Shown here piece after piece: positions 1 to 62,287 of a stretch of DNA of 64,000 nt. How positions within the stretch are numbered: the stretch's first letter is position 1; each line of letters starts with the position of its first letter. A program made the position numbers and the translations under genes. The stretch is from Cliona cf. orientalis (lineage: Eukaryota > Porifera > Demospongiae > Clionaida > Clionaidae), in NCBI GenBank assembly GCA_963930775.1, contig OZ005689.1, forward strand, positions 372,001 to 436,000. Direction: 5' to 3'. The notes under the pieces are model-generated. The model was given only the letters and a program-made list of their open reading frames with translations, was not told where the DNA came from and did not search any database.

Positions 1-2089
1 ACACTCTCTCATCACAATGTTCCAATCATCTTCATCTGTGGTATAATGACATAGTATTACATGTAACTGAAAATGCAAGTGCTTTTATGAGCTGTGCAGT
101 GCTCGAGGGACTGATAGAGATGTCCAAAATGAGTGTCTATATTTTGCTAACATTATACATGTATACTCATTACAAATACAGAAAGAGAGATAAGGCTTTC
201 AAACATGGATGATCGTACTGACTCACCGAAGGTGGTGTCATCAACAATGGAAAGAATTCTTTCAACATCTATAATAGAGAAAGAAATTTGGAATACATAA
301 CACACTATGATATTTTGCTGTCTATTAACTCCATAGCAAAACAATGATGGTATAAAAGGGGCAGTGACTGGAGAATATTATTATGAATACACTATAGAGG
401 GATTCCGCAAATCGATTATCCCGCGGCGCTAATTAGCTAAGTGGCAGAAGTCGACGTACCACGCCTACTGCCACACCCTTTGTGGGCAAAAAGGCCAACT
501 GCTGCATGTTGTTGTATTGAAACGTGTCAAGTTTTTTTTCGAAAATGAGCGACTACCGTAGTGCTAGAAATAAATGCGTGCTATTAATTAATGCGAAAAA
601 TGCGAGTTGCTGAGTGATCGCCTTATTTAATATCGCAATGATTTCAACAACGCATTTTATTCCAATTGGTACCCACCCACGTTTGTATGCAAGAGCATTC
701 AACACAAGGCGAGTGTACTTTAGAAAAAACTGGATCTGAACAGGAAGAATAGTTAGCCGGTGAGTCAGATGACTTTAGATTCTGAAAATCATAATGTCTA
801 TGCATGGCGAACTTAGGAGTACTAGACTGGCAAGGCAGGCTGAAAGCTTCATGTGCATGTCACTGTCAGTGATGCTAGTATGTTACCTGGACTCAGGAGA
901 AACTCGCATGATTAAAATTCGCATTGCTAAGAAAAATTTAAAGAATCGCAATGTTTTATACGCGCAAAAATTTCTAGCACTACGGTATTTTGAAGGTCTG
1001 AGCAATAAAGCGAAGAATCGATACAAAGAGAAGCCCCAAGCAGTCGGTCTTGGTATCCAAGACGATCCTTACAAGCCTGAGAACGGCAGTAGGCGTAAAA
1101 CGTCGACTTCGGCCGCTTAGCTAATTAGCGCCACGGAATAATCGATTTGCGGAATCCCTCTATAAATACAAAGGGGAGGACTAATAGGGAGTAGGTAGGA
1201 GTATCAAGTATCACTATGAATATAAGGAAGTAGCAAAGATAGGTTACAAGATTGCTAATGCTCGTGCATACCATCCAGAGGTCCAGGGTTGAGCTCCACA
1301 TCTCCAGACATGAGTAGACGTTGACGTATGACCGCCCGTAGATACCGCACATGACCTCTCACACCAAACACTCCAAGTGGAGAAGTAAATGCTATGCCCT
1401 TTGAACTGTGGCTATTCTCACAATTGGATGGATCCGTAGTATATCCTTTAGAAATACAGTCCCTATCTTTGCCAGCTTTGTCAGATGAAATCACACTGCA
1501 ACCGTGGCTGAAAGATGTGGTCACAGTGCTGTCTGTCACTTGAGCACGATCAGCTCTATCAGCTCTGACCGCACGTACCACAGCCGCTCGGTTACGGCTC
1601 TTGATCCTGGCAGTGTGAACTCGAAGCTGAAGCTTGGATAAAATTTGATACAGGATGAAGAGGAGAATGAACGAGGCCCCCATCACTGCACTGCATTTTC
1701 CGACTCCCTCCTGGCACAGTGTGTTGACAGGGTGGCGCTGATACAGCCTCTTCATGGCAACTCGACGACTGGCTCGATCACGAAGGAACTTGTCACCACG
1801 ATGACCCAGATCAATAGCAGCTTGGAGGACGTCTAGATCAATTTCCCTGCCGCTCGTGTCTGTACGGACTTCACGAAGACAGACGAAGTCATCTGCATCC
1901 CACCAATTGGGCGTGGCCAATAATGATAACAGCGTCAGCATAGCCATAGCAGCTTGGAGCTCAAGTATCCGATGCCCGCGGCTACTACTGGCTTTCATCA
2001 CGACATTCTAAACATTAATAGATCTAAACAATCATACAGGGTTGCTACAATATCACACTTACAAGATCCAGAGTCCAACAGACGGCCAT
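1..2089 (-). CDS. N-terminal part of a second membrane-2A gene (gene 1, runs off the left edge)
   Basis: Exons (minus): 2089-2063 (MAVCWTLDL), 2007-1272, then probably 268-227 and 35-1 (continuing outside). Exons 1 and 2 have the same borders and phases as gene 2. The N-terminal 130 residues are nearly identical to gene 2, including MAMLTLLSLLATPNWW and the membrane helix ASFILLFILYQIL. The linker before the 2A motif differs strongly in sequence and is longer. Exon 2 ends phase 1 at a GTATGC donor. Instead of a death domain, the next good exon is a 42-nt phase 1-1 exon encoding an acidic peptide (DVERILSIVDDTTF), followed by DEDDWNIVMREC at the window edge. The upstream 2A product would be 251 residues. 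The C-terminal modules are outside the window, so the full architecture is unknown. Confidence 0.65.
395..1162. mobile_element. TIR element with TA target duplication in gene 1 intron 2
   Basis: A 768-bp element whose ends are inverted repeats of about 60 bp (TAGAGGGATTCCGCAAATCG ... complement), including GCGCTAATTAGCTAAG, flanked by TA. It fills most of the intron between 1271 and 269. A plus-strand reading frame (794-1120) contains NKAKNRYKEKPQAVGL and DDPY, which recalls the N-terminal part of transposase-like proteins in cnidarians and sponges. It is too short to be functional. Confidence 0.68.
1279..1305 (-). other. 2A ribosome-skipping motif in gene 1
   Basis: Reads GDVELNPGP after IRQRLLMS, with the predicted break between Gly251 and Pro252. 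The 2A motif is identical to gene 2 while the roughly 70 residues before it have diverged almost completely. That suggests the motif is kept for its function. The exon ends seven bases later at a phase-1 donor, as in gene 2. Confidence 0.83.
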
Positions 2090-21823: not shown

Positions 21824-21859
<36 letters not shown>

Positions 21860-21971
21860 TCTCCCTCTCCGTGTCTCTCTCACACACACACATGCTATGC
21901 TTAAACACACTCCCTCGTCTAACCTCCTAGCATCACAAACAACTGTCTCTTTCTCTCTCAACTACATCTCA

Positions 21972-22082
<111 letters not shown>

Positions 22083-22312
22083 TTAACTTTAATGGTCTCT
22101 CCCCAGACAAAAATTCATTTGTATTTAAATTCTCACCAACGTCCTTGGCTTCTTTGAAGAAGTTGAGATTGTCCCTCAACCAGCGGACGCTCTGACCAGT
22201 CATGGACACCGCCCCCTCAAGGGCAAAGGTCACTGGCTTGTGTGGGCCAAGCTGATAGGCCACTGTAGTCAGTAGGCCATGCTGTGACATCACTGGTTGC
22301 TAGGGGAGGGGG

Positions 22313-22355
<43 letters not shown>

Positions 22356-23925
22356 AATGTGGCCATAGACTTCAGAGCAACTTCTGATCTCAGGCAAAAT
22401 ATTCATGGGAATCCCAAAGAATCTATGGAAAGAAATAAATATAATAATTGTTTATAATACATGTACGTGTGTACTGACTATGCTTTAATTGAAGATGCTG
22501 TATGGCTCGACTCAAGGGGGAGATGGAGGGGGAAAGAAAAGAGAGAGAAAGAGAGAGAGAGAGAGAAGGAGTGGGAGAGAGAGGTTCAACATACTTGCAT
22601 AGTTCAGGGTCCCACTGCTGTGTATGAATATTCATGAGCATTGTTCTACTGGCGTTGGTGACATCAGTCATATGTACACCTCCATCAACACCACCTGTCA
22701 GGTTCTAGTAGTCATGGAAACAGATAATATCTGAATAGAACTGCCACTAGAATATGCACCTACTTTCATCAATACAGTACATGTATTGTTTTGAGTTGGG
22801 GTCCCTCTTTGCTCTTTAGTTCTCCCTCTCCTCTCCCTCTCTCCGTCCCTCCCTCCTTCCCTCCTCTCTCTCTCCTTCCCCATCCCTCCTTCCCTCCCTT
22901 TACCCTTCTATCCCTGTCTCCCCTCCCTCTCCTCCCTCTTTCTCTTCTTCCCCTCCCTCTCCCTCTCACCCAGATGAGCCAAGTGTCAACTGTTCCAAAG
23001 AGGCAGTTTCCTTCCTCCATGGCTTTGATAACATCTGGACAGTTCTCCGGATCCATCATCCACTTGATCTTCATGGCACTGAAGTATGTGCTGATTGGCA
23101 GCCCACAGCGAGGCTGAAACAATATCAAAGAAATTAACTCCACTGGGGAAAGGTTCAGAGGTCACTGGGGACTTACTCTGAGGTGGTCAAGGCTCTTAGT
23201 TGGTGTGGCTTCAATCATTCTCTTAACAACACCAGCCGTTCTTCCATCATTCCAAACGATGGCAGGATGAAGGGGTTTCCCCGTTCGTTTGTCCCAGAAG
23301 AGGGTTGTCTCTCGCTGGTTGGTGATGCCAATCCCTCTGAGGTTGTCTGTCTGTAGGCCCTTGGCTGCCATGTCATCAGCAACCTAGTGAGTAGGAGGGA
23401 AAGAAAGAGAGGGAAGAAAAGAGAGGTTGAAGACATTGTTTGCCATGTTCTCAGCTACCTTGTCCAGGCACCTCTTCACTGAGCTCACATACTCCCCTCC
23501 ATCCTGCTCAAACCAACTGAAAATTAATAAAGAAATTTAGTCATCAATATTCGAGTATTTCAACTATCATAGCACTACGGCAGTGGGTAGGACCTCATGA
23601 TATCACAAGCTAGGGGTCGCCCCAGACTATGCCAGAGTACAAAATCATACAAGACAAGCAGCAGCAGTCATGAGTATCTATCAGCTCACCCTTCCTTGGG
23701 GAAGACTTGTTTGATCCTCTTCCTGGTGCTTGGAGACCAGCTCAAACTGCTCATAATTTGAAGACCTTCGAAACAGTATAGAGTACCCACGTGCACGTGA
23801 CACACGTATATTCCATGGTCCAACAAGGATGAAGACAGCTTAGCTTAAATTAGCGGCCATGCAGCTGTACCTACCAGTAGCCGTGAGCTGCCAGTTCCCT
23901 GGTCCACTGCTCCAATCAGAGACAT

Positions 23926-24337: not shown

Positions 24338-25645
24338 TCACTTTGTTGACAATGACTCCAAATAGCTGACCACATGGCTATGACCGTTGCTACGTGCTCC
24401 CTCCAGTGGTGTCATGTTACGCCATCCTCTGATGTTTGGTGAGCATTGGATGGTCTGGATGTAGTACTGAACCACTTCAAGGTGGCCCTTTCGTGCGGCA
24501 TCATGAAGAGGTGTGTCTCGAACTGCGTCACGGCAGAGTGGGTTACAGAGTTTATCTTCAATTAGATATTTCACTATGTGTAGGTGTCCACACAAGGCAG
24601 CCATATGAAGTGGTGTTACTTGTCGCTCGTCTACTTGCGATGAGTTGCAGTTCATTTGTTCGATGAGGTACTTCACGATGTCCATGCTGCCTCCTTGACA
24701 TGCATAGTGAAGAGGTCTTCTACCCTGCCAACCTGGAACATTGGGGTCACAGTTCAACTCAGAGACAAAGAAGGCCATTACTTTAAAGTGACTTTTGCCT
24801 GCAGCATAGTGGAGAGGAGTGCTGCCTTGAGAGTTCCTGCTGAGTGGATTGCTGTGATGCTTCAGAGTTAGATATCTCACTATATCTAGATATCCAGCCT
24901 GTGCTGCGAGATGTAGTGGTGTCTGCTTCTCCTCACCTGGACAACATGATGGATCACACTTGGCTTCTTTAATAAGGTAGCTGACAACTTCTAAGTGACC
25001 ATGTTGTGCAGCATAGTGTAGAGCAGGCCTACCCTTGAATCCAGGAGTGTTGGGGTCGAAGTTTAGCTTGCAGATGAAGAATTTGATGATTGGTAAGTGT
25101 CCATTGAATGCTGCTATGTGAAATGGAGTGGTTCCATCTTTACTTCTCTCATTAATCACGTCTTCAAGTGATAAGTAGTTTTGCATTTCGTTGATGAGAA
25201 ATTTAATTACATCCATATCACCACCCACGCAAGATGTATGAAGAGATGTGTAGCTATCTTCATCCTTATACAGTGGGTCCACCTGTTGCTCACCAACTAG
25301 ATATTGGACCAGTTCAAGATGTTTGAACTCTGCTGCGTGATGAAGAGCTATCTGTCCATACTGACCCCGACATGATGGAGAAAGACCTTTTTCTTCTATA
25401 AAGAACTTCATCACACTCATATCACCTCCCATTGCAGCCCAGTTTAGGGCAGTGTTTCCACGCTCGTCCTTTAGTAAAGGATTGACGTTTTCAGTTTCTA
25501 CTAACTGTTTTACAGTGTCTATTTCTCCCCTGCGTGAAGCCCGGTGTAGTTCCAGTCCACTGGAGTCATCAGGCGGTCGTAGTTTAGCAGCTTCACGTTC
25601 CATTCTCAGATAAGGCTCATCTCTAAGGTCCCTTTCCAGTAAGTT
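24338..25645 (-). other. Ankyrin-repeat exon of gene 2 (12 repeats)
   Basis: A single 1308-nt terminal exon. After the acidic start NLLERDLRDEPYLR it carries 12 ankyrin repeats of about 34 residues, most with the TPLHxAAxxGHLxxVxYL signature. The repeat-2 helix is NWAAMGGD and the last repeat ends at VVSYLESLSTK, then stop. The internal ATG at 25603 could start a separate 421-residue ankyrin protein. I prefer joining it to the upstream exons because an AG acceptor stands just before the open frame and the phase (0) matches the donor of exon 7. The copy at 54538-53228 has the same borders. Confidence 0.75.
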
Positions 25646-28600
25646 CTGGTGTGCAAGTGTATTGGTGTGTGTGCATGTGTGTGAATGTGTGCATAGCCCA
25701 TCCTGTATGCATATGAGCCTGTCCTGTTTATGTATGTGTATGCATATTAATTAAATCAGTTGCCGGCTAGTCTTGATTAGAATCAGCTTTGATATCTCAT
25801 AAAAGGAGTTATAATTTTGTATTGATACTCTACAGTGCTTTGTTTGAAGCCAATAGACTACTAAACTGTTGGTCCTTATACTCGAGAAAAAAAGCAGACT
25901 AGATAGATATGAAAGGTACCTTGTAGCTATTTCACATTCTGATTCGGTACAACAGGGCATTTGGACCATCCATACAGACTAACTCTCTGCCATACAGACC
26001 CTGGAGACTATAACCCTGATACCCGGAACCCAGCCCCTGAATTCTCTGAATCTCTACTATAGTTGATCACATGCATGGTCCATAATATATTTCTGAAATG
26101 TAAGGGCCGGGGGTCCGAAATATATGTATATGGACCAGGGAAACAAAAAATAGGGGATCCAAATTTGTCGTGATAGGTATCTGCATTTCAGTCAGCGGAT
26201 AGCTAGCAGCCAAACAGTATATCGCTACAACAATGTCAATATTAGATGCATTGTTTACAATAATAATATTATTATTATGTCGATGATCTACATTTGTACA
26301 TACGTATAGGCCAGTAGGCCACTTAGTTGTGTGCATTTATAAGCGGAAAGCACATGGTGTATGTATTATGCATAGAGTGGGCACTGTCGATAGGTGTGGC
26401 TATGATGGCTAACAAAAACGCACTATCTGTGATGCGTGTGGATCGTGTCCCTCAATGTGAAGCTCGCTAAAGCCAGTTTTTTGCCAAATTCAATAGTGCT
26501 TGCAAGTCTCTCAGGTCTCGAGATATGGCAATTTTTGTGCTAATGACAGCAACGGTGATAACACGACTGATTACTATGTGTACCATTACGCATATGCGTG
26601 GGTAACTATCGAGGGGGCGAACCATCGCTCCGTTGCATGGTATTAGCTACATGCTTCAACAGTTGCATGCAGAAAAGGGGATAGCTAAAGGGCTGGGGCC
26701 AGTGCGAGGCTACTAGGATTGGGGATGAGGCTAATGCACAGCAGTGTTGTTCAAAGGTTCAACGGCTCACAGCAGCAACAACTCTGGTGTGTTGTATCAC
26801 ACTCCACACTGTGGTGTCGACATCAATTCAACTTCCCTCACTGTAGCCTAACCTCCAATTCTTGGGGAATTAGCTAGCTACATGTATATATCTTAACCTG
26901 AAGGACTATGATGCAAAGCCTTGGCACTAGACTAATGTACACTGAGCAATGTTGCATATCCAATATTATCACAATTTATGATCACTTGGGTTCAAACACT
27001 GTAATGCCATGCATGTATGTATACAAGCCAGAGAGTCAAAGGGTACCACAAGAATGCACATGGCAATTGGCAGCTAAGCCTTATGGTTGAAAAGAAGCCA
27101 CTGTCATCCCACGATTGTCAAAAGCTCGCCAGTGGACTGAGTGGCGGGATTGATGCAACTGCACATGCATGCGCTGAGGGTTAATAGACGTACATACAAT
27201 ATATAACGCACAACACACAACGTTCTATTTATACGTTAAGTCATGCTATCGCTAGCTTGGGCAAGTCAAGAAGCTTAGAATTGGCAAATGATGTCAAAAT
27301 TGGCGAGCAAAACGTTTTCGTTGAAATCCACACAAATCATGTGTTTGGAACGCTCTTAGGCGCCCTTTGACCTGCCCATGAATTTTTTTGATCTAATTGG
27401 AGGCGCCTGCGTGATCTATAATTATTTGTTAGCAGGGCCTATATAGTTTATGTACGTCAAATGCAGGAATTATATTTTGACTGAACCTCAAGCGTAACTA
27501 CATGTACAGTGGAACCCCACTTAACAGACCTCTAAATGGTGGACACTGCCAGCAATATTATAATGAAATATCCGATTATATCTCCATACAGACTACAAAA
27601 CATTCAAACCCCCTTAGCATACCCAACTATTCTGTACAACATACACCCACTTTGGTCATTAGTCTGCATAATGTACAGTTCGGCACACCTACCATAAAAA
27701 TTGGTAAGTATCAGCGACCGGAAATTGGCTTGGTTAGAGCTAGCCTCGTCCCCAGGCCTTCTGAGGGGGAGGGAGAAGGAAGACCTGGTATCCACTGCAT
27801 GCGCATGCACTACATTTTCTGTATAATTTATCGTAAAAGTGTCCGTACACTAATTCCTACCACGTGCTGAAATGTGAAACGGTCCATGTGTCAAAGAATA
27901 CGGGATGACCTCTTGACCTTTCTACTAGCAATGGTGCTAAACACATGCCCAGGCTGTTCAGAGGCATTCGCCGATCGATGGACAACATTACTCAGGCTAC
28001 CTCGAAATCTCGCTTGAAATTCGAACTGTTTAAGCATGCCATTTCTAGGTATATTGAGCATGATGCATTAAGGTCAAAGGGCAAGTATACTAGGCAGTAT
28101 CCGTGCATAATCGGATTATCCAGAATCTGAATAATAATAGCGCATGCGCATGCAGCGGATACCAGGCCTTCCCTCCCCCTCCCCCCTCAGAAGGCCTGGG
28201 GACGAGGCTAGGTTAGAGCTGGAAATCCCTTATTATCACCTATGGCATAGTCTAACTATAATATCATGATTTAAATACCATGGAATGCCAGAGCTGAAGT
28301 CACCTAAGGTTGGGTGTCCATTTAGGGGCCACTTCACATTAATATTTTTTGCTTACCTCACTAAACTGAGAAGTTTCTCCCATAGTAACTTGGGACCTAG
28401 TAGCAGCACCAGCTGTTGATGTTCCAACTGCTGAATCAGCAGTGATGGAGGAAGTAGACTTTCCCATTACCATAGAAACCAAATCAACATCTGATTCTGG
28501 TGAGAAAGACAAAAGTGTGGTATTAGTGAAATAGTTAAATTAGCTACTACAGATGCATGGATATAAAAAACTATTAGAGCATTGGACTCCTTGTCAACTA

Positions 28601-31600
28601 CAAGGGGGCTTGAGGAGGCGTGCTTCCCCGTAAAAATTTGACCCCTGAGACAGAAATTTTATTACAAGTAGAGAATTGTGACAGTGAGCAAGTTTGGAAC
28701 ATCAGATGGGAGTGGGAGTGGTGGGGGAGGTATCACAGGCCCCCACAATATATACTGTAAAATCCTGCGATTACGCCCCCCCTTTATGCATGCTAGCATT
28801 GGGCAAAAGCGGGGAGGGGGCTTATACGTGGGATCCTAACATTTCCGTATGATGACCATTACCGGCCATCGAATGCCATGTGGGCGCGCGATTTCTGTAC
28901 TTTCTCTGGTTGGTGGGTAAAACTTGAGAAAAACGATAAAGTAAGACACAAATAGCTAGTTTGATAGTTGTATAGCTACTGTTTTTACTTGGCTTATGGT
29001 ATGCAATGTTTGCATTTTATAGTGGGAGCTTATATGCGAGACAAAACTACCTACATGTACGTAGTAACTTGAGCTAAAATGCAGGGGGGAGCATAATTGC
29101 AGGATTCTACAGTATTAGCATTTACCAGCAGCATCATGTGCTTCAGTCACTGAGTCAGTGGTAGAGTCAACATCATCATCCACAACCAGATCAGCCATCA
29201 AACTATGGATTTCACTCATTGACAATGCAGCCACTGTACCACTCAATTTCAGAATCACTTCTTCATCCTATATAAAGCAACATCAAATAAAGCTACATGA
29301 ATATTGCTACAACATGAAGGTATGTAGCTACCTCGTTTGTGAAGTGATAGTCTCCACAGGAGAGGTGGACAACACCCAGACCAGCTAAAGCTCTTTTCTG
29401 ATCAATAGAAAGGGGGAAAATGTCTTCCTGTACAAAGTCGGGGATTTGAAAGGTCAACTTCAAACTTCCAAGCTCAATTTTACACAGCTTTAGTGCAGCA
29501 TCTGAAGAGAGTTTCAAAATCTCAGCTAGCTTTCTCACAAACAGTTTCAATGAGCTGACAGTGTAATTGTCGTATGTTTCATCAAGAGTCATGAACAGTT
29601 CAGCATTGCCGTCGGTCACTGGTCCAAGTTCTGATGGACATTCATACACATGTCGTCTGGCATAGTCACTAAAATCTTTCTTATACTTGGTGAGGTTGGC
29701 CTTGTCTTTTGTTGTTCCTAGTTTGTCAATAACCAATTCTATGATGCCAAAATTGAAGAACGAGCAGTAGTCACCAACTATTCCCATTGCTTCTTCAATG
29801 CGCTCAGCTGTTCTCAGTTGAGGGAAATAGTGCCTCAAAACTGGTTGTTTTGGATCTTGATACGCTGGTTTGACTGATCCCAAACAGACTAAGTGAGAGT
29901 AAAGAGCTTGCGGAGAAGTGTTGCGTTCCTTGAGAGATAGAATGGTGGATGAAAATAGGTGTTGAAATTTGAACGTTATGTCCATTGATTCAGCAAAAAG
30001 TTTCTGGTGAAGTTTCTCCTTCTCTTCCTTGCTCATCTTCTTCAGGTCAAGACTGGGGAAGGTAAGCTTTGGTTTAGGTCGAGGAAGATCGTTGGAACAT
30101 TCAGCACTCCCTTCCTCATGTGTGCAAACTGCTGGAAAATAAATGACTATCTTATCAACAGAAATTTATGCCAAGATAAAATTTTCATGAAAGTTAATTT
30201 CGCCAATGCCAATGCCAATGCCCATGCTGGTCATTGGCAAAAACTGTTCCAGTTAATTGCTCGCTGTTGGATAAGTAGTAGTGCCTGTTATACCTATAGT
30301 GCTCAAAGCCTTTTCTTCTCAATCTCCAATCTAATGTCGCCACTATCATACTTCTGAGTTGTACCTTGGGATCTTGCAGGACCAGTATCATGGATAGTAT
30401 AGTGTTGCCTTGCTCCACTGGAGAGGCCAACATAGCTATAAACCCGAACTATAAGGCCAAGAAAACTATAATCGAGGGGCAGTAAATCAAGAAGACAATT
30501 AAAGACTGACGTAGGAAAGTATTGAGAGATAATAAATGTTTGCTAACTCCACCCACTACTTCCTGGAGGGCAACTTGGGCAATTAGTGAAATAAAATTCC
30601 ACAATTTCTTGTCCCAATAAGAGCCCTTGGCGAACTTTTCTATCCAGTAAAATTTTGTCATAATATTATGATGTAGAAATTTTTTGCGGAGAGAAAAATT
30701 TCGCCACCTATCGCGCGACGTTTTTTGTCCTGCAGTAAAGATTGCATAGAGTGCATGGTGATCTTTACAATAATGGCGAAAAATTTTTCCGCGAAATTTT
30801 TCTACAATATACAAAGGTAGGCTTGGCGAATATTTCATGTGCATGTACACGGTACTGTGTAGTGGGAAACTTTTGGGGAAGAAAATTTTTACGGGTCAGA
30901 GTATATAGGAAGTAAGCAGTTTGCAGTTCACAGTAAATTTTGTGGAGAAAATTTTCATGGGTGGCTATCAAACCACAATCATATTGATAAAATTATTATT
31001 CCTCAAAAGTTTCCCACTATACGGTGTACAAAATTCTGTACATGTATTATAAACCATTTACCTTCACCCGACATGGAACTGGCCAATTGAACACCGCTAG
31101 TCTCTGCTTTCTGAAGTGACTGTTGTGAAGCTCCAACAACAGCTGACTGATAACCTGGGTAGTGATAATAGTACAAGTACCATACCCTCTAAATTTTTAG
31201 TTAATATCCGCAAATAAAGTCATTATTATTGAAAGGTACTAAACGAAATTCTCCTGAAAATAGATCTATCTGGATACATACTCACTCACTGGTTAGATGA
31301 GGGTATACCATATACTTCAAAATTTTCACTAAAAGAAAATTTTCACCAATTTTTCCACCTTTTTCACACTACTCTTTTGCTCTATGCTAAAGATTGCATA
31401 GAGGACATGGCAACCTTTACTGCATTGGTGAAAATTCTTTCCATAAACTTTTTCTGCAATATAAAGGTACCATAGCTGGCCTTGGCAAAATTTTTATCCA
31501 GCGAAAACTTATACGTATACGATATTACGAATGAATATCTAGATATACCTGTTGATGATGAAGGTGCCTCTTGTTTATCATCACATTTCAGCCCTGCTTT

Positions 31601-33549
31601 CTCCCTTAGCTGGTCAGCTAGACCTTTTTCATTGACAAAATGTGACTCTAAAACATCAGTTATTGATTCCCAAGACACAGTAACTTGTGTGTTTCCATTG
31701 AGCCAGAAACTGATCACTTCTGTAAAGCATATGTGCACCATGTGATTGTCGGCTCTAATTTGACGAAGCTTGGATTCACTGACTCCCAGCTGGACTCCAA
31801 TCTGGAACCATTTATCAATCACAGAGCCAAGTTCATTTGTGATGCTCCTCAAATCCAATACTGCATGGTACAAGAGAACTTAATAATCAAAGTTTTCACA
31901 CTATGAATAAATTGTAGGGTTGAATTCAGGCTCTTGAGGGTGTGTATGTGTGTACTAGCAGTCATAGTGGTATCAATAACCCTAAATTCAAGTTCAAATA
32001 GAATCATGAATAGCAATAAGTATCAATATTAACATTGTATGCATAAAAAGGGCAGCGTAAATTAAAGTGCCAATCACCAACACAGAGCAATTACCTGATA
32101 TGCATGTACAGTAGCGGTCAATAAAAAGTTAACGTTCAGTTCCGTTGTACGATCGTTTTGAGGTGAGAACGTTTCCGTTTTCACACCGTTCCGCGTTACA
32201 GGGAAGTACGCACGCGCGCGCATCAATCGTTTTTACGTTCGTGCAAACGCTTAATTGGTAGGCGTGACCGTACTGCAATAATTGACTGTTCTCGATGTCG
32301 CATGGAAGAAACAAGCTTTCGGGAAGCCGTAAGCGACAGAGAAGCACAGGCAACCCTTGTACGGACTCGATAATGTAGCAGACATCGAAAGAAAACTGTA
32401 TCTTTGTGTCTTATTGATCGTCAGGTACGTTTCGAGCGATTAGTTCGAGCGATCGCTTCGAGCTAATGAAGCTATCGGCTTGGCTTCCAGCAAGCGGCTG
32501 AGTAGAGCTGCCTAGCGATCGTAGAAGTCAGCGCAGCAAGCGACCAAGGCTGTCTTATTACGCACTGTGCTCACTCTGAACGTTTGTCACCTACCAAATG
32601 AACGCTTGTCACCTTTTTGTCCGTACCGTTCAGCTATCGTTTCGTTCTCGTTTTCACACCGTTCAACAATCGTAGACTCGTAGGAAACGGAACATTAACT
32701 TTCTATTGGCCTCTACTGTACACTCATCAATTATTGACATACATGTATGTCCTTAGTACTCTGCACTCACCATCCAGAGGTCCAGGGTTCAGCTCTACAT
32801 CTCCAGACAAAAGTAGGAGTTGTCGGATGACTACAAGAAGATATGAACGGCCAGGTTTTGTATCCAGTTTATTCACTCCCTTCTCTTGATTAACAGCAGG
32901 ATTAGCATCTGTCGTTGATCCAGCGATACAGCCGTCTTCACAGTGGGATGAGGTGGTGCTTATTCCATTATCAGCCTTACAACATGATGGACACATACGA
33001 CAGAGCCTAGCAGCACGATCAGCTCTGATCGCACGCACCACAGCCGCTCGGTTACAGCTCTTGATCCTGGCAGCGTGAACTCGAGATTGTAGCTTGGAGA
33101 AAATTTGATACAGGATGAAGAGGAGAATAAACGATGCCCCCATCACTGCACTGCATTTGCCGACTCCCTCCTGGCACAGTGTGTTGACAGGGTGGCGCTG
33201 ATACAGCCTCTTCATGGCAACTCGACGACTGGCTCGATCATGAAGGAACTTATCACCACGATGACCCAGATCAATAGCAGCTTGGAGGACGTCTAGATCA
33301 ATTTCCTTGCCGCTCGCGTCAGTGCGAACTTCACGAAGACAGACGAAGTCAGCTGCATCCCACCAGTTGGGCGTGGCCGATAATGATAACAGCGTCAGCA
33401 TAGCCATAGCAGTTTGGAGCTCATTCCCGCGGCTACTGCTGGCTTTCTTTACGACATTCTAAACATTAATAAAAGATCTAAATAATCATACAGGATTAGT
33501 ACAATACTACACTTACAAGATTCAGAGTCAAACCATAGACAACAGCCAT
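24338..33549 (-). CDS. Membrane segment-2A-death domain-ankyrin repeat protein (complete gene 2, 8 exons)
   Basis: Exons (minus): 33549-33517, 33458-32771, 31860-31549, 31154-31062, 30131-29332, 29267-29126, 28496-28357, 25645-24338. Every intron has GT...AG ends and every junction keeps phase (0,1,1,1,0,1,0), giving 3516 nt and 1171 residues. Order: a hydrophobic stretch (29-44, MAMLTLLSLSATPNWW), a predicted membrane helix (about 112-131, ASFILLFILYQIF core), a basic/Cys-rich linker, a 2A motif (230-238), a death domain (about 241-340), a Ser/Gln linker exon, a conserved region of about 260 residues (376-642), two acidic/Ser-Thr exons, and 12 ankyrin repeats (about 745-1171). By known 2A chemistry the ribosome would release a 237-residue membrane product and restart at Pro238 to make a 934-residue death-domain/ankyrin protein. 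Death domains and ankyrin repeats are protein-interaction modules of signalling, so a receptor-proximal or immune-adaptor role is inference. A transposon lies 41 bp upstream of the ATG. The exon joins are my own reading; no transcript was available. Confidence 0.72.
26625..27330. repeat. Interspersed repeat, inverted copy of about 57313-58320
   Basis: Stretches such as TGCTTCAACAGTTGCATGCA, ACTGGCGAGCTTTTGAC (complement) and GTCATGCTATCGCTAGCT match the middle repeat of the nest at 57279-58740 in inverse orientation. No coding potential is recognisable. Confidence 0.5.
27505..28275. repeat. Repeat starting CAGTGGAACCCCACTTAACA
   Basis: The start phrase and TCCGATTAT are like pogo/Tigger ends. 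The matching copy is at about 58799-59100. In this copy it is interrupted by the MITE at 27741-28210. Confidence 0.4.
27741..28210. mobile_element. MITE with 9-bp target duplication (GGTTAGAGC) in gene 2 intron 7
   Basis: A 470-bp element. Ends TAGCCTCGTCCCCAGGCCTT and complement, an inverted repeat of about 50 bp that also includes GATACCAGG and GCATGCGCATGC. A perfect 9-bp duplication flanks it (27732-27740 and 28211-28219). The duplicated block has the unoccupied site at 59043-59051. A 9-bp duplication fits Mutator-like elements. Confidence 0.75.
28753..29112. mobile_element. MITE in gene 2 intron 6
   Basis: Ends ACTGTAAAATCCTGCGATTA and complement (with GCCCCCC), about 360 bp. The same element occurs at 59631-59984 in the matching intron of gene 3, so it predates the duplication. 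Confidence 0.55.
29332..30131 (-). other. Conserved region of unknown function, exon 5 of gene 2
   Basis: An 800-nt exon encoding about 266 residues. Recognisable stretches are MSKEEKEKLHQKLFAESMD, YCSFFNFGIIELVIDKLG, YARRHVYECPSELG and IFPLSIDQKRAL. From memory, very similar stretches recur in sponge and cnidarian proteins that also carry death, NACHT, TPR or ankyrin modules, and no biochemical function is assigned. The right-hand paralogue (62175-61376) has exactly the same length and only scattered substitutions, which indicates constraint on the protein. The region sits between the death-domain/linker exons and the ankyrin exon. Confidence 0.65.
30849..31025. mobile_element. MITE in gene 2 intron 4
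   Basis: Ends resemble GTAGTGGGAAACTTTTGGGG and its complement (CCTCAAAAGTTTCCCACTAT), joined to an ACGGTRTA motif at each side. About 177 bp. Related phrases recur at 17250-17425 and 21290. Confidence 0.45.
31549..31860 (-). other. Death-domain exon of gene 2
   Basis: A 104-codon exon with phase 1 at both ends. It begins VLDLRSITNELGSVIDKW and contains the six-helix death-domain pattern, including the W in FQIGVQLGV-type helix 2/3 spacing, the FTEVISFWL helix and the VSWESITDVLESHFV helix. The acceptor is a pyrimidine-rich tract ending CAG and the donor is ACAG/GTATAT. It is the first exon after the 2A motif, so it would form the N-terminus of the released downstream protein. The family call comes from pattern recognition of the helices, not from a profile search. 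Confidence 0.7.
32109..32718. mobile_element. Tc1/mariner-like MITE in gene 2 intron 2
   Basis: A 610-bp element. Ends CAGTAGCGGTCAATAAAAAG and CAGTAGAGGCCAATAGAAAG (inverted), flanked by TA. The CAGT..GG.CAA..AAAGTT start is the classic Tc1/mariner end pattern. It separates the 2A exon from the death-domain exon. Confidence 0.65.
32778..32804 (-). other. 2A ribosome-skipping motif in gene 2
   Basis: The codons read GDVELNPGP, preceded by a Leu-rich run (IRQLLLLS). This fits the 2A consensus D-V/I-E-x-N-P-G-P exactly, with the expected helical hydrophobic lead-in. The skipped peptide bond would lie between Gly237 and Pro238 (between bases 32781 and 32780). Seven bases after the Pro codon the exon ends at a GTGAGT donor, and the next exon opens with the death domain, so 2A sits exactly at a module boundary. 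2A motifs also occur at the start of some invertebrate non-LTR retrotransposon proteins, but no endonuclease or reverse transcriptase follows here. Confidence 0.85.
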
Positions 33550-35534: not shown

Positions 35535-37870
35535 ATGTATGTATGTTTGTTGGAAGTTACTAAGCAACCAAGTACATTAGAGTAGTGTTCAAGAGCTTTG
35601 TAAAACTGGTTGTTGAGAGCACATGTCATGCAGTCTACCCACTATCCAGTTAGGAGTGTAGGCTTGCATAGACTTTGGGTTAACTTCCAACAAAATAGTT
35701 ATCTGTCAGTGAGTGAGCAATATGAGCCCTTGCAGGGCTCATATTGCTCACTCACTGACAGATAACTATTATATGTATGTACATGCATGTATGTATCTAT
35801 GTATGTATTATATTATATTATGTATGCACACAAGTACTGCACTCTCACCATAAATGTGCACACACACAAGGTGACAGCTCTGCCAGTGAAAATGCTGATT
35901 CTGCACTGGTTGATGAACGAATTCGTCTTATCTTGGACACACAAGATCCAAAAATTGTAGGTGATCTACGTCAGCACAACCCTGGTAGGCCCCCAAAATA
36001 CGAACCATTTTGGGAGCAATGCAAACAGTATCTGGCAGAAGAAGTGGAGACTCCAGTAGATGAACGACGACATGGAGAAGTGGCTCACTTGGCTAAAGCA
36101 TTATCTGCGAGGGATTTACTCGAGCAAGTTGCTGAGCGGTGTCCAGAAGGAGTTGCTGTGCCTTCCAAGCAGTGGCTGAGGCTGCAATTCTGGCCAAAAA
36201 ATCCTAGTCTGAAATCATCATTGCAACACACTGGCAAACTCGAGGTGAAATTTATGGTCCAGGCTCGCCAGCTTCGAAAGCAACACGAGGATGCCCATTA
36301 TTGTTCAGCTCTATTTCGCTACCTGAGAGAAATGTGCATCAAGTTTAGAGATCACTGTCAACTTGTATGCTTGGATGACAAACACAAATGCAAAGTGGGT
36401 GAACCAGGACTGCCAGTTGCCGCAATTGAAAGAGGGAAACAAGTGTGTGTTTCTACCAATGGAAACAAATTTGCTGTAGCAGATCACGATTTTACGAAAT
36501 CTAGTGTAATACCGAGTGTGACTCTGCTCTGTGACACACCAGACAGCATTGATGGTAGTTTCTACCGAGGCCAGGTATATGTGGGTATAAAAGATGCCAT
36601 ACTAGAAGCTTCAAGCCCACTCAGACACAGTACAGAGCTCAGTAAGATTCTGAAGGAACAGAAGGGAAACCCTGCAATAGTGCTGCTATACACAGATGGC
36701 GGGCCTGATCACAATGTGACATTCATGAGTGTACAGCTGAGTCTCATTGCCCTCTTTTTGCAGCATGACCTTGATATGTTAGAAGCAGTAAGAACAGCAC
36801 CCTACCACTCATGGAAGAACCCTTGTGAGCGAGTGAACTGTATTCTAAACATTGGTCTACAAGCAGTGGGACTCATGAGAGGAGGAATGAGTGATGCAAG
36901 TGAGAAGAAGATCAGCAATTGCAATACAATGGATGAAATGCGGAAGGTTATGCAGGAGAATCCAAACCTGAAGGAGGATTGGGAAGATTCCATTGAGCCT
37001 GTGAAAATGCTGATGTCATCAGTATTTCAGCGTCTTAATCTCAAAGACAAAGCTTTCTTAGTCTTTCCAGCTGCTACTGATCACGAGATGGAGGCTTTCT
37101 TTTCCTGTCTTTGTGACATTGATGCAGACTTAACAAGAGCAGACAAGTCGAAGCAATGCCTGTCCAGACGAGCAGGATTGAAGAAGTTCATGGATCACTG
37201 TTGTTACTTCAGGAAGTATGTATTTGGTGTAAAAAAGTGCGGACATGATGATTGCAGCATTTGCTTGCCATCACGTTTACCGAAAGAGGTATTCGATCAA
37301 CTTCAACACCTTCCTGATCCAGTAGCAGACGGTGAACACTACAAGAGTTTTGAAGATGTCTATGGTTGCATGACAACAGAGAAAGACTGCCCATCACTCA
37401 AAACTTCTAGCAAGAAATCTCATGGAATTCCATTCTCCCCTAGTGCACAAACAGCTCGCGTACTAGTGTTATGCTCGGAGTGTCTAAAACCTCGTGTTGT
37501 GTACAGCCGACAGAAACTGAAAATACACGAAGAATATGCTTTGGAACGTACATTTGATGGTATTCTCTTCACCTGCGGGAGTACCTTAAGAGGGCTAGAG
37601 GTGAACAAACTACCAAGTGATCCACCATCCATACAAACACTTACAGAGCGTGTTTTTGTTCGAGAAAATCTGACATGTGATGAGCTTGTGGAGATCCCGT
37701 ATTTTTCAAGTGAAAAGTTTCAAGATATATGCATATACTGTGCTTGTACAGTCACCACGGATCGACTGATTGAAGGACAGTACCCAATCTGTCAGGATTG
37801 TCAACAAAGTGGAAAAGTGCCAGTGTTTAAAAGAAAGAGGAAACTATTCTCTCCACCCTCTCTAGATTGA
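33854..37870 (+). CDS. Putative DDE-type transposase of the 33591-38087 element
   Basis: Likely exons: 33854-34222, 34329-34728, 35026-35317, 35871-37870 (TGA). The last exon (667 codons) is the catalytic part. It has LVCLDDKHKCKVGEPG, LLYTDGGPDHNVTF and SWKNPCERVN, which place acidic residues as expected for a D-D-E triad, and Cys pairs near the C-terminus (CIYCAC, CQDCQQ) typical of a zinc ribbon. The 34222/34329 junction is phase 0 and the 35317/35871 junction is phase 1. The junction between exons 2 and 3 does not match: the GTATGA donor at 34729 is phase 1 while the open frame after 35021 needs phase 2 or 0. Either another donor is used or there is a frameshift. I recall similar proteins from sponges and corals without a name; the DDE assignment is inference from spacing. 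Confidence 0.6.
35457..35524. repeat. (GT)n microsatellite in the transposon intron
   Basis: About 64 bp of GT inside the intron 35318-35870 of the DDE gene, followed by GTAT repeats. Confidence 0.9.
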
Positions 37871-40825: not shown

Positions 40826-41029
<204 letters not shown>

Positions 41030-42288: not shown

Positions 42289-44020
<1,732 letters not shown>

Positions 44021-53227: not shown

Positions 53228-56200
53228 TCACTTTGTTGACAATGACTCCAAATAGCTGACCACATGGCTATGACCGTTTCTACGTGCTAGTTCCAGTGGT
53301 GTCATATTACTCCATCCCCTTATGTTAGGTGAGCATTGGATGGTCTGGATGTAGTACTGAACCACTTCAAGGTGGCCCTTACGTGCAGCATCATGAAGAG
53401 GTGTGTTACGATCACTGGCACGGCAGAGTGGGTTACAGAGTTTATCTTCAATTAGATACTTCACTATGTGTAGGTGTCCATGCATGGCGGCCATATGAAG
53501 TGGTGTTACTTGTTGCTCGTCTACTTGTGATGGGTTGCAGTTCATTTGTTCGATGAGGTACTTCACGATGTCCATGCTGCCTGCTTGACATGCATGGTGA
53601 AGAGGACTCCTACCCCACTGACCTGGAGCGTTGGGGTCACAGTTCAACTCAGAGATGAAGAAGGCCACTACTTTAAAGTGACCATCGAGTGCAGCAAGAT
53701 GGAGAGAAGTGTTGCCACGAGAGTTCCTGCTGAGTGGATTGCTGTGATGCTTCAGAGTTAGATATCTCACTACATCTAGACGTCCGTCCTGTGCTGCGAG
53801 ATGTAGTGGTGTCTCCTTGTCCTCACCTGGACAACATGATGGATCACACTTGGCTTCTTCAATAAGGTAGCTGACAACTTCTAAGCGACCTCCTTGTGCA
53901 GCATGGTGTAGAGCAGGCCTACCCATGAATCCAGGAGTGTTGGGGTCGAAGTTTAGCTTGGAGATGAAGAATTTGACGACTGGTAAGTGTCCATAGAGTG
54001 CTGCTAAGTGAAATGGAGTGCTTCTATCTTTCCTTCTCTCATTAAGCACGTCTTCAAGTGACATGTACTTTTGCATTTCATTGATGAGAAATTTTATTAC
54101 ATCCATATCACCACCCTGACAAGATGTATGAAGAGACGTGTCGCCCCAGTGTTCATCCTTAGAAAGTGGGTCCACCTGTTGCTCACCAACCAGATACTGG
54201 ACCAGTTCAAGATGTTTGAACTTCACTGCTGTATGAAGAGTTGTCCGTCCATACTGTCCCTGACATGCTGGAGAAAGACCTTTTACTTCTATGAAGAACT
54301 TCATCACACTCAGATCACCTCCCTCTGCAGCCCAGTGTAGGGCAGTGTCTCCATGCTCGTTCTTTAGTAAAGGATTGACGTTTTCAGTTTCTACTAACTG
54401 TTTTACAGTGTCTATTTCTCCCCTGAGTGAAGCCTGGTGTAGTTCCAGTCCACTGGAGTCATCAGGCGGTCGTAGTTTAGCAGCTTCACGTTCCATTCTC
54501 AGATAAGGCTCGTCTCTAAGGTCCCTTTCCAGCAAGTTCTGGTGTGTAAGTGTATTGGTGTGTGTACATGTGTGTGAATGTGTGCACAGCCCATCCTGTG
54601 TGCATATGAGCCTGTCCTGTTTATGTGTGTGTATGCATATTAATTAAACCAGGTGCCGGCTAGTCTTGTTTATAATTAGCTTTGATATGTTGTAAAAGGA
54701 GCTATAATTCTGTTTTGACAATGCTAAGCCAATAGACCCCTAACTGTTGCTCTATGGGATTGGAGACTAGACCACATACATGTATACTCAAGAAATAAAA
54801 TTGAATTTTTTTATACACTATAAGTACTCCATAGAGAGCACATACATTGCACAATCTGTATCTACTTTAAATTTGTGTGCATGATTAAAATTTTGTGAAT
54901 TTAGGAAAAACAATGGAAATGCTGCTTGGTTGTAGGGGTTCCGATGATGTCAGCCAAAATACCATTCTCTCTCTGTAGACTAGAAAGATATGAAATGCTA
55001 CTACATGTACCTTGCAGCCATTTTACATTCTGATTCGGTTCCATAGGCCATTTGGATCCCCTATACAGACTAACTAGACCTTGGAGATCGACTACATAAC
55101 CCTGATACCCGGAACCCAGCCCCTGACCCCTCTGAATCTCTATTACATATACCGTAGAGCGGGAAATTTTCGAGGGTATTAATTTTCATGAAAAGTAAGA
55201 TTTAGCCTCCAAATTTAATTTTCGTGAGTCTAAATTTCTTGGCTCTTGACAATTGCACTTGCCACGCCCCGTTCGCCATCATCAAGCAAAGCTACCGATG
55301 ACTGTCACCGAAGTGACAGAAACAGAAATTTTCCAGTCTCATACTGTGTTCAATGATCGCAAAGACTCAACAGATTGGAGGCAGATGCCATGCGTTTGAT
55401 CACGATCGCGTGCATGCTCGTGGCAACTTTACCAGACGACCTTTACCTACTGTGGCAAATTTTCGTGGGGTGTAAATTTCGTGACCGTTAGAGCAGTCAT
55501 GAAAATGACGAAAATCAGCCCCCCACGAAAATTACCTGCTATACGGTATATTTCTGAAATGTAAGGGCCGTACATGTATATGGACCGGGGGAATAAAAAA
55601 ATAGGGGGGTCCAAATTTGTCGTGACAGATGTCTGCATTTCAGCCAGCGAATAGCTAGCAGCCAAACAGTATAGCACTTCAATGTCACGAGCATTATTTA
55701 GAATACTATATCAACGATCTATGTATATTTACAGTAGGCCACTTAGTTGTGTGCATGAACAGAAAGCAGAGTGGGCACTATTGGTAGGCGTGGCTATGAT
55801 GGCTAACAAAAGAGAGCACTATTTATGATGCGCATGGATCCTGTCCCTCAATGTGAAGCACACTATAGCCAGTATTTCAACTGATTCATCGTGCTTACAA
55901 GTCACTCAGGTGCCTAGTTCTCAAGATATGGCAATTTTTGTGCTATTAAAAACAACAGCAATGACATATGACCAGTTACTATACCCATTGTGCATGGGTA
56001 ACTATTGAGGGGGTGAACCATCGCTCACAGCATGATAATCTAGTATGACCCACTTGAGGGGGATATGCTTTAGCTAATAAAAATCCATCATCTATGGTTC
56101 ATCTATGAAATTCAGCACCTCTTCAACATATTTTACACAAAATAAGATTACTAGGGTGATGTAAATCATCGAGGGGGCGAGCCTTCGCTCGTAATAGTTA

Positions 56201-59200: not shown

Positions 59201-62175
59201 AAGTTGCTCCCATAGTAACCTGGGACCTAGTAGCAGCACCAGCTGTTAATGTTCCAAATGCTGAATCAGCAGTGATGGAGGAAGTAGACTTGCCCATTAC
59301 CATAGAAACCAAATCAACATCTGATTCTGATGAGAAAGACAAAAATGTGGTATTGGTGAAATAGCATACTTATTTACATGTAAATAAGCTACTACAGATG
59401 CATGGATATAAAAAACTATTAGAGCATTGGACTCTTCGTCAACTGCAAGGGGGCTTGAGGAGGCATGCTTCCCCATAAAAATTTGACCCCTAAGACAGAA
59501 ATTTTATTACAAGTAGAGAATTGTGATAGTGAGCAAGTTTCAAGAACGGGGAACATCATGCAGATGGGAGTGGGGGTGGTGGGGGAGGTATCACAGGCCC
59601 CCACATCGAAGGATAATAATATTATATACTGTAGAATCCCGCGATTATGCCCCCCCCCCTTTATGCATGCTAGCATTGGGCAAAAGGGGGGAGGGGGCTC
59701 ATACGCGGGATCCTAATATTTCCGTGTGATAACCATTACCGACCATCAAATGCCATGTGGGCGCGCAATTTCTGTACTTCCTCTGGTTGGTGGGCAAAAC
59801 TTGAGAAAAACGATAAAGTAAGACACAAATAGCTACATGTAGTTTGTTAGTTGTAGCTACTGTTTTTACTTGGCTTATGGTCGGTAATGTCTGCATTTTA
59901 TAGTGGGAGCTTATATGCTACCTACATGTATGCAGTAACTTGAGCTAAAAATGCAGGTGGGAGCATAATTGTGGGATTCTACAGTATTAGCATTTACATG
60001 TACCAGCAGCATCATGTGCTTCAGTCACTGAGTCAGTGGTGGAGTCGGCATCATCATCCACAACCAGATCAGCCATCAAACTAGGAACTTCACTCAATGC
60101 AACCACTGTTCCACTCAATTTCAGTTCTTCATCCTACAATTAAGTAATATACAATTATTGCACACTCCTTCATTGAATAGTGTGATTTATTACTACCCAA
60201 GGTGTGGGTATATTCCACGAGGCCGAAGGCCGAGTGGAATATTCACACCGAGGGTAGTAATAAACACACTATTCAATGAGAAGGAGTGTGCAATTGTTGT
60301 TTTATTATAATAGAATAGGACTAATAACTGTAGTGCTAGCTAGGAATCAATGGCTGTATCTCAGACTCAGAGAGACATTATAGGAATTGCTACAGCACAG
60401 CCACCGCGCACTTGCCTATATTACTCTGGTGTGTGCATGTACTCTGACCACACATTGTCATGTCAACCAATTACCACTCTGTGGCCACGTCATCTTAGGC
60501 ACCGCCCTCTTCACGCTTGATTCACTGCTGACAAGGCACAGCTGGGTTCGCGCGAAAGGCAGCCAGCCATGGCGCCGCACATCGACGAACGTGACAAGTT
60601 TTAAACAGCTTTGGAGTGGAAAATAAGCTGGTGAGTCTATAAGGAATCCATGCATAGACCACTCTGCCTATAGACTACTGGTGTTCACTGTACAGTACTA
60701 GCTAGTCAGGCTGCATGTAGGCTAGTGATGGCCACCGCTACAACGTGGCCGTCATTGTGAGCGGTCGAACTAGCTTTCTTCTATCCGTTTGTGAATGCCT
60801 GAGAGTCTGTTGGACAGAGCTAGCAATAGAGCTTACCTAACCATAGCGTTATTCTGGACTACTGATTTGATGTCGCCATTCTTTTTTGTTTGAATCGCCA
60901 TGGTTACTGTGTGGAGCTCAACTACGCGCATTGCGCGTTCTGGCGCAGTGGAATACCGTGAATTATTCTACGCTAATTGACCAATCAGATTACAGTATTA
61001 GTACTATACTATATAGCCCCGTTTACACTAGGCCTTTAAACCAGCTTGGAAGCCAGCTTAGTTTAAGCTGGCTTAGTGTAAACGCGCTAAACCGCTTTAC
61101 AAGTCGCCTTCTAAACTGGTTTGTAAACCACGTCTGGGAGGTGGTTTGAAACCGGTTTCAAACCGGTTTAGGATATGTTGCTGTACAAACTGTCCATGTG
61201 TAAACGCTCTAAGCTGGCTTAAGGCGCTTACATAAGCTGGCTTGAGGCCCTACGTGTAAACGCGATTAAAGCGCATTCCAAAGCGGTTTAGTCTAAGCCA
61301 GCTTGTATGTGTAAACGGGGCTTATAATAATATCAATTATTGAAGCTACATCACATTGACACAACATGAAGATACCTCATTTGTGAAGTGATAATCTCCA
61401 CAGGACAGGCTGACGACACCCAGACCACCTAAAGCTCTTTTCTGATCAATAGAAAGGGGGAAAATGTCTTCCTTCACAAAGTCGGGGATTTGAAAGGTCA
61501 ATTTCAAACTACCAAGCTCAATTTTACACAGCTTCAGAGCAGCATCTGAAGAGAGCTTCAAAATCTCAGCTAATTTTCTCACAAACAGTTGCAATGAGCT
61601 GACAGTGTAATTGTCGTATGTTTCATCAAGGGTCATGAACAGTTCAGCATTTCCGTCGGTCATCGCTCCAAGTTCTGATGGACATTCATACACATGTCGT
61701 CTGGCGTAGTCACTGAAATCTTTCTTATACTTGGTGAGGTTGGCCTTGTCTTCTGTTGTTCCTAGTTTGTCAATAACCAATTCTATTATGCCAAAATTGA
61801 AGAACGAGCAGTAGTCACCAACTATTCCCATTGCTTCTTCAATGCGCTCAGCTGTTCTCAGTTGAGGGAAATAGTGCCTCAAAACTGGTTGTTTTGGGTC
61901 ATGATATGCTGGCTTGACTGATCCCAAACAGACTAAGTGAGTGTAAAGAGCTTGTGGAGAAGTGCCGCGTTCCTTGAGAGACAAGACAGTGGATGAGAAT
62001 AAGTCTTGAAATTTGAACATTATGTCCATTGATTCAGCATACAGTCTCTGGTGAAGTTTCTCCTTGTCTTCCTTGCTCATCTTCTTTAGGTCAAGACTGG
62101 GGAAGGTAAGCTTTGGTTTTGATTGAGGAAGATTGTTGGAACACTCAGCACTCCCTTCCTCATGTGTGCAAGCTG
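53228..62175 (-). CDS. Third 2A-family gene, C-terminal exons 5-8 (gene 3, runs off the right edge)
   Basis: Exons (minus): 62175-61376 (800 nt), 60133-60004 (130 nt), 59326-59187 (140 nt), 54538-53228 (1311 nt, stop at 53228). Lengths, order and phases (1->0, 0->1, 1->0, 0->end) match exons 5-8 of gene 2; exon 6 is 12 nt shorter. The ankyrin exon has 12 repeats and starts NLLERDLRDEPYLRMERE. The death-domain, 2A and membrane exons would lie beyond 64000, judging from the collinear intron sequence still present at 63480-64000. Its longer introns come from insertions missing in gene 2. No frameshift is visible in these four exons, so both copies look functional. Confidence 0.68.
55152..55546. 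mobile_element. MITE with CCGTAGAGCGGGAAATTTTC ends
   Basis: Ends CCGTAGAGCGGGAAATTTTC and complement (GAAAATTACCTGCTATACGG), TA flanks, 395 bp, in gene 3 intron 7. Related to the outer element of the nest at 57279-58740. Confidence 0.55.
56188..56317. repeat. Foldback (hairpin) repeat in gene 3 intron 7
   Basis: AATAGTTATTGACCAA, TTTGTATGCAGTATAGAAGC and CCCGAGGG are mirrored by their complements. Same design as 60157-60297. Confidence 0.55.
56754..57090. mobile_element. Partial MITE of the GGCC/CCGCCCGC group
   Basis: The left end reads GGCCACTCCAATGAAATTCC, then GTTTCTCATCAC, and GCGGGCGGGCG lies inside. The right side has the complementary GGCGGGCGGGTGATGAGAAAC, but the terminal GGCC is not found. 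It lies in intron 7 of gene 3. Confidence 0.5.
57279..58740. mobile_element. Nested MITEs, outer element
   Basis: Outer ends CCGTATAGCGGGAAATTTTT and complement (GAAAATTTCCTGCTATACGG), TA flanks. A second repeat (about 57313-58320, starting AACCCTCGGCGCATGCGCGA) is inserted inside and itself contains the third element at 57598-57814. The second repeat also occurs inverted at about 26625-27330. Confidence 0.55.
57598..57814. mobile_element. Nested MITEs, innermost element
   Basis: Ends CCGTATTTCTTCTAAAAATT and complement, TA flanks, 217 bp. The empty site (GTCTATTAACCCTC on the complementary strand) is visible at about 27184-27197. Confidence 0.6.
59631..59984. mobile_element. MITE in gene 3 intron 6
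   Basis: Counterpart of 28753-29112 with the same ends (ACTGTAGAATCCCGCGATTA). Confidence 0.55.
60157..60297. repeat. Foldback (hairpin) repeat in gene 3 intron 5
   Basis: GCACACTCCTTCATTGAATA, then TATTACTACCC and TATTCCAC, are mirrored by their complements around GAGGCCGAAGGCC. Almost the whole 140 bp can pair. Absent from gene 2. Confidence 0.6.
61016..61321. mobile_element. MITE with GCCCCGTTTACAC ends in gene 3 intron 5
   Basis: Ends GCCCCGTTTACAC and complement. The interior is built of AAGCTGGCTTA, AAACCGGTTT and GTGTAAACGC repeats. 306 bp. Absent from the 64-bp intron at the same place in gene 2 (29268-29331). Confidence 0.6.
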
Positions 62176-62287
62176 CTGGAAAACAAATGACTAATAGTAT
62201 CTTATAAGCAGAAATTTTCACCAAGATAAAATTTTCATACAAGCCAATGCAGGATTGCATTCAGAAGGGGGGGCGCATGCACTGAAA

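Follow-up and report, generated by a model that had tools for sequence, protein, structure and literature searches.

We analysed a window of 64,000 nucleotides from the sponge Cliona cf. orientalis (GenBank assembly GCA_963930775.1, contig OZ005689.1, positions 372,001 to 436,000) and, in it, a minus-strand gene at 33549..24338 in which a leader ending in a 2A (StopGo) motif stands in frame ahead of a predicted death-domain and ankyrin-repeat protein. Rejoining and translating its eight exons gave 3516 nt including the stop codon, or 1171 residues with no internal stop, and all seven introns have GT-AG ends. Exon 1 (33517..33549, minus strand like all the others) provides the start codon and 11 codons, and has a counterpart in two tandem paralogues, A and C. 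Exon 2 (32771..33458) encodes the leader with its predicted membrane helix, has the 2A at its end and closes with a phase-1 donor. Exon 3 (31549..31860), entered in phase 1, is assigned to a death domain by the gene model and by profile evidence; exon 4 (31062..31154) is a linker, and exon 5 (29332..30131) holds a module with a TRADD-like N domain (model and Pfam). Exons 6 (29126..29267) and 7 (28357..28496) come, like exons 1 and 4, from the rebuilt model, and exon 8 (24338..25645) encodes the ankyrin repeats and the stop (model and Pfam). A first-pass annotation had proposed eight exons in frame (1171 codons) and a 2A that would split the product into a leader of 237 residues up to NPG and a downstream protein of 934 residues from Pro; our rebuilding reconfirmed coordinates, frame and lengths, as well as the proposed phase 1 to phase 1 join, the last bases of exon 2 being CCT CTG GAT G and the first of exon 3 TA TTG. 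No in-frame ATG precedes the death domain within exon 3, and we did not find an alternative first exon (an ATG-open frame with a phase-1 donor, at a home-made score cut of 2.5) in the 910-nt intron 2; an upstream exon is therefore required.

The 2A segment, YLLVVIRQLLLLSGDVELNPGP, lies at 32778..32843 (minus strand) and was assessed by its octapeptide, its conservation and a codon comparison. Its last residues, GDVELNPGP (32778-32804), fit the 2A/StopGo core (D/G/C/N)(V/I)ExNPGP, at which the ribosome releases the upstream chain at NPG and carries on (PMC12846837, cited here and below, like the other papers, from the sections consulted). Upstream of the core, YLLVVIRQLLLLSG is hydrophobic and conserved among the aligned leaders, and the stretch ahead of SGDVE resembles the kind that mattered in tests of sea urchin 2A sequences (PMC4981915); 2A activity itself is not readable from sequence and depends on upstream context, not on the octapeptide alone (PMC4981915, PMC12846837). 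Further upstream we predict a transmembrane segment, CSAVMGASFILLFILYQIF (33099..33155, minus strand; leader residues 113-131), with a hydropathy of 2.04 over 19 residues. A low-confidence structure model of the leader places this segment inside a long helix, with a short helix directly ahead of the 2A. A Pfam scan of the leader gave no match.

Downstream of the 2A, the gene has the order Death, TRADD-N, ankyrin repeats, as in sponge Death-TRADD-N-ankyrin proteins. The gene's own exon 3 matches Pfam Death (PF00531) below the cut-off (E 0.059); in the alignment of its family (A2, for which 55 of 74 homologues were taken), 46 of the 56 members match the same model at E<=0.1, the best of them (P0074) above the cut-off at 1.7e-5. 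On this profile evidence exon 3 appears to be a death domain, of which the gene's own copy is a weak example. The TRADD-like_N match (PF20694; 29437..29553, minus strand) has an E value of 7e-4 when the whole protein is scanned and 1.2e-4 for the exon 5 frame, where its 22.3 bits fall just under the cut-off of 23.7; a relative in locus L034 is above it, at 28.2 bits. The ankyrin repeats are matched at E 5e-75 (Pfam). The Pfam scan of the gene found no NACHT, no reverse transcriptase and no viral domain, and sequence searches of the PDB gave no usable match. The first-pass annotation had missed the TRADD-N region and regarded the architecture as one not known; proteins combining Death, TRADD-N and ankyrin repeats had already been described in the sponge Amphimedon (PMC8195603).

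The core D(V/I)E(L/V)NPGP is kept in 63 of 66 aligned leaders (65 database relatives and the query), at identities to the query down to about 30%. This set includes paralogue C, and five of its members (P0061-P0065) were probably picked up mainly through the 2A stretch; the three leaders without the core were inspected over their last 40 residues only. Near-invariant residues also occur far from the 2A in the long leaders (>200 residues). Among the paralogues read in this genome, we compared the ratio of nonsynonymous to synonymous change (dN/dS) in the 20 codons ending in the 2A with that in the rest of the leader; four of the five groups had a lower ratio in the 2A codons. The gene's own group shows this most clearly (0.14 vs 0.53, 4 sequences), and the other three groups gave 0.26 vs 0.43 (6 sequences), 0.49 vs 0.57 (4 sequences; group V, where it is slight) and 0 vs 0.49 (3 sequences, with only 2 silent changes summed over pairs).

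Across the genome we found 152 exact matches to the octapeptide pattern (105 DVExNPGP and 47 DIExNPGP) and none to the reversed patterns, which is more than chance would give. A scan of prokaryote genome contigs gave 58 pattern matches and no relative. We read 24 of the 152 sites: the three tandem genes and 21 sites in 20 further loci. One of these loci, L024, is a retrotransposon with its own 2A followed by PHD, endonuclease and reverse transcriptase domains, and with no good phase-1 donor beside the 2A; three 2A sites match its PHD-RT element family (L024, C13:1374287 and C1:32630860), the domains being confirmed for L024 only. At all 20 non-transposon sites read, a phase-1 GT lies 1-13 nt past NPGP. 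In all 19 loci with these sites, a death-like exon follows on the same strand according to a home-made profile; this profile derives from three domains in the region of the tandem cluster, which match it by construction. The Pfam scan, covering 19 of the 23 long downstream frames in the 20 loci, identified NACHT frames after the 2A in six loci (L016, L017, L018, L021, L022 and L035), with leucine-rich repeats (LRR) as well in one sister locus, and ankyrin frames in six others (L020, L026, L030, L031, L032 and L034). Leader types differ too, some being long with several conserved stretches and others short and hydrophobic, ending in the 2A. Overall, an immune-type module lies downstream of at least 81 of the 152 sites, a lower bound and not an unbiased rate, as it was assembled from by-eye picks (13 of 104 NACHT entries and 33 of 150 exon 3 entries) together with the loci with death-like exons. 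The gene, presented in the first-pass annotation as a single host gene, is thus one of a genome-wide set that includes NACHT genes, that is, genes of the NOD-like receptor (NLR) type. Two side observations came out of this census. In L027-L029 the 2A and death-type exons are followed by frames of 857-956 residues without a Pfam match, possibly a third class of 2A receptor. On C1, between 18 and 36 Mb, there are some twelve DIEVNPGP sites that are spelled almost identically, listed on C1 only.

The co-location of the 2A with receptor modules was scored for the best 150 of 1292 Death candidates, 103 of 490 for NACHT, 150 of 692 for exon 3 and 144 of 225 for exon 5, and for all TRADD-like_N (48) and leader (58) candidates; the counts below refer to 103 matches from 104 NACHT entries (two being pieces of one match), the highest 101 of the 144 for exon 5, and all 150 for exon 3. 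The expected values assume evenly spread sites, an assumption that tandem arrays break. Of the 16 TRADD-like_N matches, 14 follow a same-strand 2A at a distance of up to 9 kb (0.05 expected). For relatives of exon 5 scoring at least 200 bits, a 2A occurs up to 9 kb upstream on the same strand in 46 of 52, and for relatives of exon 3 scoring at least 88 bits in 15 of 17 (0.05 expected). Among the best 103 NACHT matches, 11 come after a same-strand 2A by no more than 7 kb (0.25 expected), against one that lies up to 7 kb upstream of a 2A and none within 7 kb on the other strand. In 14 control genomes, the NACHT model matched in 11 (3 above cut-off), and Death and TRADD-like_N in none.

The gene itself stands in a tandem array. 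In paralogue A (about C1:438630-425223) each of the eight exons can be aligned, and GT and AG still flank them; it is 92% identical in the leader exon and 89% in the death exon, and the sole change in its octapeptide is silent. In the window, its alignment gives the TRADD-N module exon at 61376..62176 and the ankyrin exon at 53231..54541 (both minus strand), with its leader, 2A and death exon to the right of the window. Paralogue C, which runs leftwards from C1:374089, keeps exon 1 (2063..2089, minus strand, by a translation check) and an open frame with the leader exon and GDVELNPGP (1255..2007, minus strand). Downstream, it extends for the most part beyond the left edge of the window. Visual inspection gave, after the 2A, a candidate for a small phase-1 exon and an exon of death type; these are followed by a TRADD-N module with 47% and ankyrins with 84% identity to those of the gene. 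Another ankyrin exon, also 84% identical, is found at C1:361080-359770, with no leader or exon 5 match listed just upstream. Between paralogue C and the gene, at 19190-19648 (minus strand), there is a further death-domain exon (Pfam Death, E 1.8e-10) with no 2A within 12 kb upstream. Intron 2 of the gene, between the 2A and the death domain, mostly does not align to paralogue A; it contains an insert resembling a miniature inverted-repeat transposable element (32100..32727) with 42-nt inverted ends that are 83% complementary, most of which is unmatched in that paralogue. Elsewhere in the window, repeated open frames at 21111-23161 (minus strand), 40702-43239 and 50000-52000 resemble glycerol kinase exons by eye, with no family search made, and a 703-residue open frame upstream of the gene on the opposite strand (35759-37870, plus strand) had no Pfam match at E<=0.1.

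The DNA itself shows the exon structure, frame, conservation, recurrence and domain content. From them, the gene is probably a host gene of an expanded family, in which a fast-evolving leader that ends in a 2A (StopGo) would be joined by phase-1 splicing to the death domain heading a receptor-like protein, and would be released at NPG. The ribosome would most likely let go of the leader at NPG and continue from Pro, so that one mRNA would give two products in a near-fixed ratio, a small one that carries the predicted membrane helix and a free Death-TRADD-N-ankyrin protein; an unskipped share would remain tethered by the leader to a membrane or the secretory route. The receptor part would be Death-TRADD-N-ankyrin in this gene and Death-NACHT, once with LRR, in sister loci, and the best reading of the whole set is that receptors of two classes, NLR and Death-TRADD-N-ankyrin, use a StopGo module as leader. 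Splicing, skipping, the topology of the leader, tethering and a part in immune signalling are all predictions from these sequence features. The idea of two products, already put forward in the first-pass annotation, is well supported at the sequence level by the core kept across leaders and by the phase-1 donor that adjoins it, with skipping itself still a prediction.

Several results weigh against this interpretation. An AlphaFold2 model of exon 3 was poor (predicted template modelling score 0.38), Foldseek gave no death fold from it and no PDB match at E<=0.001, and a search with the full-length protein found no relative. The dN/dS comparison shows no constraint in group II (0.43 in the 2A codons vs 0.38 in the leader, 2 sequences), and it is biased towards constraint in general, because its loci were chosen by the exact octapeptide and 8 of the 20 codons could therefore hardly vary in amino acid. 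The phase-1 GT has a low donor score in the short-leader loci L016, L018 and L022 (0.5, 0.5 and 0.3), the last of which has a slightly better phase-1 GT further downstream. Because copies in tandem depend on one another, the expected values given above understate chance. Weaker relatives of exon 5 have a 2A upstream in only 4 of 20 (120-200 bits) and 5 of 29 (85-120 bits), and weaker relatives of exon 3 in only 10 of 133 (0.42 expected); set against the strong relatives, these figures indicate that the 2A belongs to one branch of each family. Finally, none of the best 150 of 1292 Pfam Death candidates lies downstream of a 2A; the death domains beside 2A sites are divergent, and Pfam Death is a poor probe for co-location.

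The 2A could instead be read through, or be mostly inactive, leaving one membrane-anchored Death-TRADD-N-ankyrin receptor in which NPGP is kept for another reason, for instance as a structural linker. The need for upstream context beyond the octapeptide leaves room for this, and there are precedents for anchored receptors, since receptor-like TRADD-N proteins with a transmembrane helix are described in Crassostrea (PMC8195603) and NLRs with transmembrane domains in Dysidea (PMC12909245). A linker, however, would not need a core retained in nearly all aligned leaders and recurring after several different-looking leader types, and the hydrophobic stretch before SGDVE is of the kind found important in sea urchin; we regard read-through as improbable. 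It is less credible still that the exon with leader and 2A represents a small gene of its own or what is left of a retroelement, and is not spliced to the death-domain exons. The genome does contain an element with its own 2A, L024, and two relatives of it start at other 2A sites. At the other loci, however, the scan of 19 of the 23 long downstream frames found no reverse transcriptase, and each of the 20 sites has its GT in phase 1; the arrangement recurs genome-wide, exon 3 has no start of its own, and we found no alternative first exon in the intron. On exon phase, the missing start and the absence of reverse transcriptase from the scanned frames, we rejected this explanation.

A closer contender is a narrower form of the preferred two-product model, in which the leader would serve for dual targeting only, as a signal or anchor without a further job, skipped chains being cytosolic and unskipped ones entering the membrane system. 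A 19-residue hydropathy peak of at least 1.8 is present in 18 of 23 non-transposon leaders, and directly ahead of the 2A in the four leaders of group V; the same logic has been proposed for the 2A of sea urchin NLRs, a precedent tested in mammalian and plant cells (PMC4981915). Leaders of more than 200 residues nevertheless have near-invariant residues far from the 2A, beyond the needs of an anchor, and 5 of the 23 leaders have weak hydropathy only (their upstream exons were not sought). Dual targeting alone is thus a serious possibility, and one that we are inclined to doubt. The signal-sequence logic would fit the short leaders, while the long ones suggest a membrane protein that would be produced alongside its receptor in a fixed ratio.

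With respect to evolution, we advance a broader proposal tentatively, judging it only a little short of evenly balanced. In this early-branching animal, StopGo might be a general building block of innate immunity, used in dozens of receptor genes of two unrelated architectures (NLR and Death-TRADD-N-ankyrin), each with a lineage-specific membrane leader as partner in fixed ratio, so that one mRNA would provide both a membrane anchor or effector and a sensor. Given the 2A already known in sea urchin NLRs, the link between 2A and death domains would be either older than bilaterians or have arisen twice, with retrotransposons that carry a 2A as a possible source. Cells are described as using 2A rarely (PMC12846837), and at least 81 of 152 sites placed before immune-type modules would be a striking exception in one animal lineage. 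If true, the sponge would offer a natural test bed for why receptors come with a skipped partner, and would bear on whether the 2A of immune receptors is of ancient origin or was captured from mobile elements.

Among known systems, the viral StopGo/2A sequences (Li et al. 2026, PMC12846837) share the canonical core motif, whereas here it stands in a cellular spliced gene with no viral domain in the Pfam scan. The 2A-bearing retrotransposons without long terminal repeats have the same octapeptide, and L024 is one of them in this very genome, but its downstream frame is a reverse transcriptase, and there is no good phase-1 donor beside its 2A. The receptor half belongs with the Amphimedon Death-TRADD-N-ankyrin expansion: 357 TRADD-N proteins are reported there, with Death and TRADD-N followed by ankyrin repeats among the commonest themes, and the NCOA6-clade proteins of this very large expansion have 1-3 Death-like domains, TRADD-N and a variable C-terminus, mostly ankyrin or SH3-LRR (Kaur et al. 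2021, PMC8195603). In contrast to the Cliona gene, no 2A is mentioned for them, the terms NPGP, 2A peptide, 2A-like and ribosome skipping occurring 0 times in the main text of that paper. Within a literature that we covered in part, and as far as we searched, three features are new: TRADD-N proteins with a 2A, a long leader joined by splicing, and so many cases in a single genome. A 2025 survey of eukaryotic 2A sequences (Rao et al., Cell Rep. 44, 115822, cited in PMC12846837) may already list such cases.

As the genome-wide set includes NACHT genes, the direct parallel is the 2A of sea urchin NLRs. In Strongylocentrotus purpuratus, where the NLRs form a large immune family, about 35% of them (85 of 241 by the authors' count) have an N-terminal 2A; one with the same core motif skipped at about 80% by the authors' estimate, and the short N-terminal 2A doubles as a signal sequence, skipped chains being cytosolic and unskipped ones secretory (Roulston et al. 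2016, PMC4981915). Both systems have D(V/I)ExNPGP, in sea urchin at or near the N-terminus of DEATH-NACHT-LRR proteins, and short hydrophobic leaders, death-type exons and NACHT occur in Cliona too. Unlike the sea urchin genes, those described here come from another phylum, often have a leader that exceeds 200 residues, contains a predicted membrane helix in its interior and is joined in phase 1, and include a second, non-NLR class with a 2A, Death-TRADD-N-ankyrin, to which the studied gene, itself without NACHT, belongs.

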